NCBI GenBank assembly: GCA_944350325.1
Contig: CALVOS010000088.1
Span: 1-34,077, forward strand
Length of the DNA stretch: 34,077 nucleotides
Source of the DNA: an uncultured Bacilli bacterium
Lineage (GTDB): Bacteria > Bacillota_I > Bacilli_A > RFN20 > CAG-826
Reading direction: 5' to 3'
Each line of letters starts with the position of its first letter. Within the stretch, counting starts at the first letter, position 1. Positions 8,806 through 31,363 of this stretch are shown piece by piece. A program made the position numbers and the translations under genes. Below the pieces are notes generated by a model. That model worked only from the letters and a program-made list of their open reading frames with translations, was not told the DNA's origin and ran no database searches.

Positions 8806-8898
8806 AAACCAAAAAGAAAACCACCGCGCAAGGCATCCGGCCTTAAGGCTGCTCGGTTCCCCGCCTGACCTGGTTCGGCCCTCCGCCCTCGCGGTGGC
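8806..8898 (-). ncRNA. ffs: Signal recognition particle RNA (small bacterial type)
   Basis: The minus strand contains the universal SRP helix-8 core: CCAGGTCAGG, then CGG-GGAA-CCG with a GGAA tetraloop, then AGCAGCC. The RNA ends pair: CCACCGCG (8897-8890) with CGCGGTGG (8828-8821), followed by a T-rich tract (TTTTCTTTTT, 8820-8811) that serves as terminator. It would be an RNA of about 80-90 nt without the Alu domain, binding Ffh for cotranslational membrane targeting. A perfect TATAAT sits at 8905-8910. Its position between serS and tadA matches scr/ffs neighbourhoods in other Bacillota. Confidence 0.93.
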
Positions 8899-8904
8899 GT
8901 GAGG

Positions 8905-29976: not shown

Positions 29977-30080
29977 GTAACGCAAACAGCGTTACGTAAA
30001 TCTATCGATTCAATCGAAAGATTTTCGAATTTCACAGATGTATATCATTACATCTTTGAATGTAACGCAATCCGCGTTAC
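29977..30080. repeat. Cluster of inverted repeats upstream of the RHH-macrodomain unit
   Basis: The AT-rich gap is bracketed by two copies of a perfect palindrome GTAACGC-N5-GCGTTAC, at 29977-29995 (N5 AAACA) and 30062-30080 (N5 AATCC). Between them lie TCGATT-C-AATCGA (30005-30017), TCGAAA-GAT-TTTCGA (30014-30028) and AGATGTA-N6-TACATCT (30036-30055). The two outer copies share arms but not loops, as expected for protein operators. The second ends nine bases before the next ATG. Autoregulation by the RHH protein is inferred; a promoter with TATCAT at 30043-30048 is possible but weak. Confidence 0.8.
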
Positions 30081-30089
30081 GATTGAGGT

Positions 30090-30356
30090 ATGGCAAAGAC
30101 AACTTTGAATCTTCGCGTCGACCCGCGCGTGAAAAAGGACGCTGAGAAGGTGTTCGCCAAGCTAGGCATTTCGATGACGTTCGCTGTCACGGAATTTCTG
30201 AAGGCCTCCGCTAGGGATGGCAGGCTTCCTTTCTCGCTTGAGTTAGGGAAGGCCTCTCCCAATAAGCCTGTGGCGAGAAAAAAGGCGGCTCCTATGCCCG
30301 CCAAGGAAGAAAAGAAGCCCCCTCTCACGCTAAAGAAGGCTTTGGAGTACCTTTGA
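30090..30356 (+). CDS. RelB/DinJ-like ribbon-helix-helix protein, no partner toxin
   Basis: An 88-residue protein. Residues 4-52 (TTLNLRVDPRVKKDAEKVFA, LGISMTFAVTEFLKAS, GRLPFSL) follow the RelB/DinJ antitoxin pattern: a DNA-binding beta strand (TLNLRV), then two helices. The C-terminal third is Lys/Pro/Ala-rich and may be disordered until bound to a partner. GAGG is one base before the ATG, so initiation is probably weak. A RelE/YafQ toxin would normally follow. Instead the next gene, three bases away, encodes a macrodomain hydrolase. Inverted repeats upstream are likely its operators. The fold is quite sure; the function as antitoxin, regulator or both is unknown. Confidence 0.82.
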   Translation: MAKTTLNLRVDPRVKKDAEKVFAKLGISMTFAVTEFLKASARDGRLPFSLELGKASPNKPVARKKAAPMPAKEEKKPPLTLKKALEYL

Positions 30357-30359
30357 GTC

Positions 30360-31142
30360 ATGGAAGACCTAGCGAGGGTCGAACGTCTTATTCAGATCCT
30401 TCTCCTTGATCATCCTGAGCACGCCTTCCTGGTAAGGCAATACGGGAGAGGCTATCGCGAAAGAAGGAAGCTTCTTCAAGGACTCATGGCGCTTCGTCCC
30501 GCCGGTCCCTTGTCGCAGGAGTTCCTAAGGCTCGAGGGGGCCTTGCTCGATGAGGAACGGGAAGAGTCCGGACTCATCGACATCCTCTCCCTTGCTGCCT
30601 CCGTCTTCCCGAAGATCACGCATTTCCACGGGGACATGCTCCGCCTTCGGGCGGACTGCTACGTGAACGAGGCGAGCCTCGAGCTCCAGGGGTGTTTCGT
30701 CCCTGGGCACCGTTCGCTGGATGCCAGGATCCATTCCGCCTCCGGCCTTGAGCTAAGGAACGCCTGCAAGAGGTTTTCGGACCAGGTTTCCTCCGTCCGG
30801 CCGGGCCTTGTCTGGATCACCGAAGGCTACCACCTCGCCGCGAAGCGCGTGGTGCACGCTGTCCCGCCCTCTGTCCGCGGGAGGCTTCGCGACATCGACG
30901 CCCGCGATCTCTCCTTGACCTACGAAAGGGCGCTCCGCCTTGCCGAGAAAAGCGGCATGCGCACGGTCGCCCTCCCCTGCCTATCCACCGGGGAGAAGGG
31001 GTTCCCAAGAAAGGATGCCTGCGGAATCGCGATCGATGCCGTCCTTGAGGAGATCTCCTCCTCGAAGGATGCTCCGATCGTCTGCTTCGTCACGGAGAAG
31101 GAAGAGGACAGGGCGCTCTACGAAGAAAGGCTGGGCATCTAG
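30360..31142 (+). CDS. Macrodomain protein-ADP-ribose hydrolase, zinc-macrodomain (SirTM-linked) type
   Basis: A 260-residue protein. The N-terminal extension (1-85, with LLQGLMALRPAGPLSQEFL) matches that of bacterial zinc-dependent macrodomains rather than generic MacroD. The macrodomain runs from GDMLRLRADCYVNEAS (91-106) through GCFVPGH and ARIHSASGLELR, ITEGYHLAAKRVVHAV (153-168) and the loop CLSTGEKGFPRKDA (207-220). These enzymes remove ADP-ribose from proteins and normally sit with SirTM, GcvH-L and LplA2, none of which is here. As I recall the family, zinc is held by Cys-His-Cys in GCFxPxHxC. Here Cys112 and His117 remain, but the last ligand is Ser119. The second Asn of the usual VNAAN is also changed (VNEAS). 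Activity is therefore uncertain. Confidence 0.82.
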   Translation: MEDLARVERLIQILLLDHPEHAFLVRQYGRGYRERRKLLQGLMALRPAGPLSQEFLRLEGALLDEEREESGLIDILSLAASVFPKITHFHGDMLRLRADCYVNEASLELQGCFVPGHRSLDARIHSASGLELRNACKRFSDQVSSVRPGLVWITEGYHLAAKRVVHAVPPSVRGRLRDIDARDLSLTYERALRLAEKSGMRTVALPCLSTGEKGFPRKDACGIAIDAVLEEISSSKDAPIVCFVTEKEEDRALYEERLGI

Positions 31143-31144
31143 CG

Positions 31145-31324
31145 ATGTGTTTCCGTCTTAGAAGGAGGAAGCCATCCTTCCCGCTTAAAGAAATCGAGCG
31201 CGAGCGCCTCCTTGGAAACAGGAACAAGGCCGCCGCCCTCCTTGAGAAGGCTCATCGCTCCGGCGAGATCGGCGAGGCCGCCTACCGCATAGAGAAGGAG
31301 CTTCTCCTCAAGGAACTAGACTAG
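31145..31324 (+). CDS. Small basic protein, 59 residues, unknown function
   Basis: An ATG two bases after the macrodomain stop opens a 59-codon frame ending in TAG at 31322-31324, just before the terminator. It begins MCFRLRRRKPSFPLKEIERE and ends RIEKELLLKELD: a very basic N-terminus followed by a helix-prone segment. Only a weak Shine-Dalgarno is seen. Tight spacing and placement before the shared terminator support it as the third gene of the unit. I recognise no family. Confidence 0.55.
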   Translation: MCFRLRRRKPSFPLKEIERERLLGNRNKAAALLEKAHRSGEIGEAAYRIEKELLLKELD

Positions 31325-31333
31325 GAGAACAAG

Positions 31334-31363
31334 AAAGGCCCCTCCTTCCGGAGAGGCCTTTTT
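31334..31363. terminator. Bidirectional intrinsic terminator
   Basis: AAAGGCCCCTCC-TTCC-GGAGAGGCCTTTTT is a 12-bp stem with one mismatch and T5 on the plus strand. The minus strand reads into TTTCTTGTTCT. It lies between convergent genes, the RHH-macrodomain unit and ppdK, and can end both. Confidence 0.9.

Follow-up and report, generated by a model that had tools for sequence, protein, structure and literature searches.

What does a macrodomain protein do when its gene lies directly behind that of an antitoxin-type repressor? This question is raised by a locus in a 34,077-nucleotide stretch of DNA from an uncultured Bacilli bacterium (contig CALVOS010000088.1, hereafter the window), which is chromosomal and carries dnaA, dnaN and gyrase genes (gene names were assigned by eye from the open reading frames, ORFs). 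The assembly to which it belongs (G000) has a size of 1.24 Mb and is 94.6% complete. At the locus, glmU is followed by two exact palindromes, a gene for a ribbon-helix-helix (RHH) protein, a gene for a macrodomain protein, an ORF of 59 amino acids (aa), a stem and the convergent ppdK gene. We suggest, with moderate confidence, that a toxin-less autorepressor derived from DinJ controls an operon in which a co-opted, probably non-catalytic member of the Zn-Macro family has been kept as a binding module.

Organisation of the locus

The RHH gene (30090-30356, plus strand, 88 aa) is separated by 3 bp from the macrodomain gene (30360-31142, plus strand, 260 aa), and the latter by 2 bp from the 59-codon ORF (31145-31324, plus strand). 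The original prediction, which was made from the window sequence, had described just this layout, including the close packing and the two exact palindromes, and it holds for all of these elements. Judging from the spacing, the three genes are probably co-transcribed. A shared terminator had also been proposed; the stem at 31334-31361, between the small ORF and ppdK, fits a terminator common to both, and the scan reports it on the minus strand only.

A Zn-Macro protein with an altered active site

The 260-aa protein matches the Pfam Macro domain with 81 bits and, over its full length, NF003163 ('protein-ADP-ribose hydrolase') with 178.6 bits, which is below the equivalog cut-off of 272. The AlphaFold2 (AF2) model (predicted local distance difference test score, pLDDT, 93.6) has the predicted MacroD-type fold and N-terminal three-helix extension of a Zn-Macro, and its best Foldseek match is SpyMacro (8rsm), with template modelling (TM) scores of 0.89/0.91. 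SauMacro (5kiv, 8rsl), SpyMacro and MorMacro (8rsi) all resemble it in the full-length fold, including the N-terminal helices, at TM 0.88-0.92 and 28-34% identity; 8rsj falls within the same range of TM scores.

According to PMC11490716, Zn-Macros are erasers that are paired with SirTM writers, and they are defined by a Cx4HxC zinc motif, the NAAN motif, an active-site arene and a pair of Asp and His. The same paper describes zinc coordination as strictly associated with activity among the SauMacro mutants tested. With the Zn-Macros of SirTM operons the window protein shares the position of the zinc loop and the Asp/His pair (Dx3H; D121 and H125), but three other features are altered. The CFVPGHRSLDARIH zinc loop reads C112-x4-H117-x-S119, i.e. 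Cx4HxS, the third zinc ligand having changed from Cys to Ser (C119S); NEAS stands in the place of NAAN, with loss of the last Asn (N106S); and K213 occupies the position of the active-site arene (Phe/Tyr; F-to-K). In the alignment, the codons of NEAS, the zinc loop, D121 and H125 lie at 30666-30734 and that of K213 at 30996-30998, both on the plus strand. The locus further differs from SirTM/Zn-Macro operons in the lack of a SirTM gene and in the RHH gene in front.

Such losses are found in nearly all RHH-linked copies of the macrodomain. At least one catalytic feature is lost in 17 of 18: Cx4HxC is present in 9, NxxN in 4, the Asp in 11, the His in 14 and the arene in 1, while a single copy (G005) has all features, the row of G002 (L080), which is partial owing to a frame change, being scored as having no arene. 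For eight other copies the corresponding figures are 8, 7, 8, 7, 8 and 6; these include one (L077 of G014) with a truncated N-terminal part and a stop, and their SirTM linkage was checked for the rows from the genus only. A shorter MacroD-type protein (L082_G167_2) was excluded from the tally, and the second macrodomain of G017, which has a canonical zinc loop and arene and lies on a 3.1-kb contig, was counted in neither group. None of the three Cys/His zinc ligands is present in G012, G035, G030, G002, G019 and G013; some of these six have Asp or Asn at two ligand positions, so that they might still bind metal weakly. G028 has a copy of either kind. The SirTM-linked one keeps the zinc motif, Asp, His and arene and has lost only the first Asn of NxxN (DxxN), while the RHH-linked one keeps the zinc motif, Asp and His and has lost the arene and the last Asn. 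From the substitutions in the window protein we infer that it has lost hydrolysis, and it is probably no efficient eraser in G000.

Search for writers

The original prediction held that an ADP-ribosylation-reversal gene had come under the control of an antitoxin-type repressor. One half of this stands, since an RHH protein with operators of its own heads a Zn-Macro operon. The other half, an intact ADP-ribosylation-reversing enzyme, is weakened by the active sites described above and by the search for a SirTM- or DarT-like enzyme elsewhere in the genome: G000 has no match to SirTM, SIR2 or DarT, other transferase families not having been searched. Of the 37 genomes of the genus, 15 match the SirTM query, but clearly so in G028, G027 and G014 alone; the faint matches of the other 12 coincide with SIR2 matches. 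The latter occur in 26 genomes and, as in G000, none was found in G018, G032, G022 and G011.

No SirTM gene adjoins the macrodomain gene of G000 or is fused to it, and a SirTM operon was rejected as an explanation of the locus. In G014, the macrodomain gene is separated from the SirTM gene by an AbiEii-type gene (L077:6849-7679).

DarTG is a further case of a macrodomain encoded in a short operon of toxin-antitoxin flavour, as at the window locus. This reading was rejected as well; DarT has no match in any of the 37 genomes, and the structures that the window macrodomain matches are Zn-Macros, in a comparison that did not include DarG.

Linkage of the RHH and macrodomain genes

A macrodomain search of 193 relatives gave matches in 64, of which 20 are within the genus. 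In 18 of the 37 genus genomes the macrodomain gene forms part of the locus with the RHH gene. It is directly adjacent (-4 to +15 bp) in 12, at a distance of 76 bp in G019, and separated from the RHH gene by a DUF362 gene in five (G012, G035, G030, G002 and G005, the last with the locus spread over two contigs). In the remaining two of the 20 genus genomes with a match (G014 and G027) a SirTM gene is near the copy. The link and the operator are thus conserved in the genus, and the pairing is not confined to a single genome; confinement of that kind would, according to the original prediction, have refuted it.

The locus is found at the same chromosomal place in many genomes. The pair also persists in G013, of which the stretch examined contains no glmU or ppdK, and in G016, G026, G034 and G036, where the neighbours are not glmU and ppdK. 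Members named by a genome scan are metagenome-assembled genomes of uncultured Firmicutes/Bacilli, one of them from horse faeces. Outside the genus, no RHH gene adjoins a macrodomain among the matches listed, except in G167, whose RHH belongs to a YafQ pair of its own. A scan of genome contigs with two peptide patterns, which reaches close relatives only, gave 11 loci, six in the genus and five outside (L138-L142), the latter without an RHH match. One of these five, the SirTM/Zn-Macro operon of Methanomassiliicoccus (L139), has a DUF362 relative after SirTM and near the Zn-Macro gene, as is the case in 5 of the 18 RHH-linked loci, but its SirTM gene adjoins the macrodomain gene and it has no RHH match.

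The DUF362 gene between RHH and macrodomain in the five genus genomes encodes a [4Fe-4S] protein (L073:6000-7115, L079, L078, L080, L096/L068). Close relatives lie among genes that appear by eye to be of Fe-S type in G029 and G007, both without an RHH or macrodomain match. In several genomes a protein of 84-91 aa (MDWTCVYGRDVYLN...) is encoded between glmU and RHH (L073:7595-7870, L096:1994-2260, L079:7153-7407); two copies were scanned and matched no Pfam family over the cut-off.

Phylogeny and selection

The macrodomain tree is divided by a single branch (support 99/97) into 17 RHH-linked rows and 15 other Zn-Macros, SirTM-linked copies among them, and the same branch is obtained, again with 99/97, after removal of the motif columns (window residues 102-126 and 207-217). 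The row of G002 was excluded from the trees; the branches of G028 and G019 are long. Ratios of nonsynonymous to synonymous substitution rates (dN/dS) were calculated for pairs of sequences by the method of Nei and Gojobori, with some dS values near saturation. For the macrodomain they are 0.17-0.18 among the window, G018 and G032, 0.256 for G022 against G011, and 0.114 for G035 against G030, neither of which has a Cys/His zinc ligand; for three more pairs dS is saturated and no ratio was obtained. By these codon comparisons the macrodomain is under purifying selection.

The RHH protein

The RHH protein lies above the family cut-offs of RelB/DinJ, matching TIGR02384 (RelB_DinJ) with 57.1 bits (cut-off 45.65) and Pfam RelB with 27.9 (cut-off 22.4), and a profile built from its orthologs matches DinJ and RelB structures. 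The RHH domain (about residues 1-53) is followed by a variable linker and a conserved C-terminal motif. The motif has the consensus S-L-K-x-A-I-D-K-L and reads LTLKKALEYL in the window (30324-30353, plus strand). Ala84 is invariant and Leu88 nearly so among 27 aligned orthologs, with three near-duplicates (G024, G021, G001) excluded, and a helix is predicted by AF2 at 81-86 with low confidence. dN/dS of the RHH gene is 0.05-0.14 among the window, G018 and G032 and 0.07-0.19 in seven other pairs. A tree on 60 columns neither supports nor contradicts the locus RHHs as one clade.

Assigned by operator, place or C-terminal motif, the locus RHH is present in 30 of the 37 genus genomes. DinJ/RelB proteins (4q2u, 4ml0, 9lew) are alike in the RHH domain, the palindromic operators and a C-terminal motif resembling that of YafQ antitoxins. 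By contrast, the locus RHH has no adjoining toxin gene, and G000 has no match to YafQ or ParE/RelE, although both were found elsewhere in the genus, YafQ in 8 of the 37 genomes (over the cut-off in 7) and ParE/RelE in 15 (over the cut-off in 14). Antitoxins that are paired with YafQ (three examples from the genus and G167) have a similar C-terminal stretch plus a central part without counterpart in the locus RHHs, where the variable linker replaces it. In 30 of the 37 genomes an antitoxin-family gene has been retained with no toxin gene next to it.

These observations bear on the proposal that the locus is a toxin-antitoxin unit, in which the RHH antitoxin would face the macrodomain or the small protein as toxin, or in which the macrodomain would be the antitoxin as in DarG. 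The family of the RHH protein, the shape of the operon, the autoregulatory palindromes and the likeness of the C-terminal motif to the ends of YafQ-paired antitoxins all fit such a unit. We nevertheless consider it very improbable and rejected it, given an RHH that persists without the macrodomain in 12 genomes, a small ORF in just 9 of 18 loci, the replaced central part and the absence of matches to DarT in the genus and to the YafQ and ParE/RelE toxins in G000.

Operators and probable autoregulation

Both palindromes are exact copies of GTAACGC-N5-GCGTTAC. O1 (29977-29995) starts directly after the glmU stop codon, and 9 bp separate O2 (30062-30080) from the start codon of the RHH gene. With up to 3 mismatches allowed, the window has no further site (100 shuffles gave a mean of 0.45, and 7 of the 100 reached 2). 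The two are also the sole exact sites in the whole assembly, which has one more site with 2 mismatches. At up to 1 mismatch the palindrome is present in 22 of the 37 genus genomes. With each place counted one time, all 12 exact palindromes (in 9 genomes) and 6 of the 17 with one mismatch lie immediately upstream of the locus RHH gene; the reversed control pattern was found at 4 places in total. A palindrome at the position of O1 also occurs in G018, G032, G022 and G011. Because all 12 exact palindromes of the genus are placed in this way, autoregulation by the RHH protein through these predicted operators is well supported. On sequence alone, such operators agree with those of RelB/DinJ type II systems, which also have a cognate toxin of RelE, YafQ or ParE type that was not found here.

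In the macrodomain-less genomes inspected with the order glmU-RHH-ppdK, two GCGTTAC half-sites are present at the operator place. In G028 and G019 a TGTATATACA-like sequence replaces the palindrome, and the RHH strand deviates too (KTVVNIR and NTIINLR, versus KTTLNLR and the like elsewhere). Six of the one-mismatch sites are an identical sequence in six related genomes without the macrodomain (G009, G006, G001, G031, G020, G003); in the three inspected it lies between SPFH-like and Asp23-like genes, named by eye (L144, L145 and L151, at about 1501-1519). This might be a second RHH target or an inherited chance occurrence.

A possible promoter (30056-30083, plus strand), recognised by eye as TTGAAT (30056-30061) and TACGAT (30078-30083) with a spacing of 16 bp, overlaps O2. 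A scan for sigma-70 promoters returned none; the pair has 8 of 12 consensus bases, which is under the threshold of the scanner. No well-spaced Shine-Dalgarno sequence was seen by eye before the RHH start (window 30056-30092; also G018, G032, G022 and G011), and the RHH message may be leaderless.

Function of the macrodomain and alternative explanations

In the arrangement that we propose, an RHH dimer would bind O1 and O2 and shut the operon, as the conservation of the operators suggests. The macrodomain protein would be produced together with the RHH protein; it is related to hydrolases of the SirTM/Zn-Macro type, with several catalytic residues lost. Since its fold and some of the pocket are retained and selection has been maintained, a binding role is the simplest account, and ADP-ribose or an NAD-derived metabolite would be the most likely ligand. 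By analogy with toxins of RelBE type, which take the place of a co-repressor, the macrodomain would most likely act on another protein, which could be the RHH repressor; contact between macrodomain and RHH protein is speculative. A more specific version, in which a DinJ-type autorepressor has swapped its toxin for a catalytically dead Zn-Macro that responds to ADP-ribose, NAD or O-acetyl-ADP-ribose and adjusts repression via the RHH C-terminal motif, seems unlikely to us; if true, an eraser enzyme and a toxin-antitoxin regulator would have been combined into a metabolite-sensing switch.

Several observations weigh against a co-opted, non-catalytic binding module under RHH control. The locus RHH is present without the macrodomain in 12 genomes (G031, G024, G003, G006, G021, G001, G008, G020, G009, G010, G014, G033), and must act there in some way without it. 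The C-terminal motif is conserved whether or not the macrodomain is present; it is thus not macrodomain-specific, which argues against an exclusive partnership. Of the 17 one-mismatch operators, 11 lie elsewhere than at the RHH gene. The macrodomain changes more rapidly than glmU, for which dN/dS is 0.05-0.10, and in G002 the macrodomain gene is split over two frames (L166:180-1060), as a pseudogene or through an assembly error. In the window protein C112, H117, D121 and H125 are retained, Ser119 could still hold metal weakly, and among the RHH-linked copies half retain the zinc motif and one the full set. The queries for ADP-ribosyltransferases were SirTM, SIR2 and DarT, whose models are not exhaustive, and the assembly is nearly but not fully complete. 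The original prediction saw a partner of the RHH protein in the macrodomain or the small protein; an obligate partnership is not supported, in view of the 12 of 30 RHH genomes without the macrodomain and the 9 of 18 loci with the small ORF.

The strongest rival assumes no functional coupling at all. The RHH protein would be a vertically kept orphan autoregulator, and the Zn-Macro gene a remnant of a former ADP-ribosylation operon that is hitchhiking and slowly decaying. The absence of the macrodomain from 12 of the 30 genomes with the locus RHH, the split gene of G002, the long branches of G028 and G019 and the constant chromosomal place in many genomes are all in its favour. Decay is, however, at odds with purifying selection that persists even without Cys/His zinc ligands (G035 against G030), with the predicted fold of the window protein, which is intact, and with the survival of the pair in altered neighbourhoods (G013; G016, G026, G034 and G036). 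We regard hitchhiking as a tentative possibility.

Alternatively, the macrodomain might have stayed active as an ADP-ribosyl hydrolase that works without zinc or through a weakened zinc site and that, under RHH control, reverses the action of an unknown transferase. The four retained residues of the window protein, the Cx4HxC motif in 9 of 18 copies and the complete active site of G005 speak for this reading. We consider it distinctly improbable for the window, where C119S, N106S and the F-to-K change of the arene coincide with a genome that has no SirTM, SIR2 or DarT match; moreover, SauMacro reportedly needs zinc (PMC11490716), and sister copies without Cys/His zinc ligands persist.

No support was found for a mobile element or a defence unit, the latter having been considered in the original prediction, although no search was made with defence libraries (PADLOC) or PHROGs. 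Two peptide patterns found no relative in viral contigs, and the matches in phage (5 records, of which 1 spans 80% or more of the query) and plasmids (95 records, of which 7 do so) are distant, all being below 60% identity. Four of the 7 well-covered plasmid records were inspected; three are Sir2-annotated under the match, and one, unannotated, is SirTM-linked.

We return, then, to a toxin-less autorepressor with a macrodomain kept for binding. What sets this lineage of Zn-Macros apart is that its genomes mostly have no SirTM and its members have lost catalytic features to varying degrees, while remaining behind a conserved autorepressor; a conserved yet catalytically eroded macrodomain hints at an enzyme turned sensor or binding partner. 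The genus offers a natural series that runs from the full active site of G005 to the loss of all Cys/His zinc ligands in G035 and would allow a transition from enzyme to binding protein to be tested. No description of an RHH-Zn-Macro arrangement was found among the titles and abstract openings listed from the open-access literature, which is weak evidence of novelty.

The small ORF and other features

The 59-codon ORF looks like a real gene, because relatives were found in eight other genomes (G018, G032, G012, G035, G030, G002, G019 and G028; 9 of 18 macrodomain loci including the window) and dN/dS is 0.19-0.20 for the window against G018 and against G032. It matches no Pfam family over the cut-off. 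Assignment to GvpG was rejected (3 of 7 members matched, at best with E 0.034, well short of the cut-off), as was a suspected likeness to SHOCT, which Pfam did not report. Elsewhere in the window, a bacterial small signal recognition particle (SRP) RNA is encoded at 8815-8900 on the minus strand.

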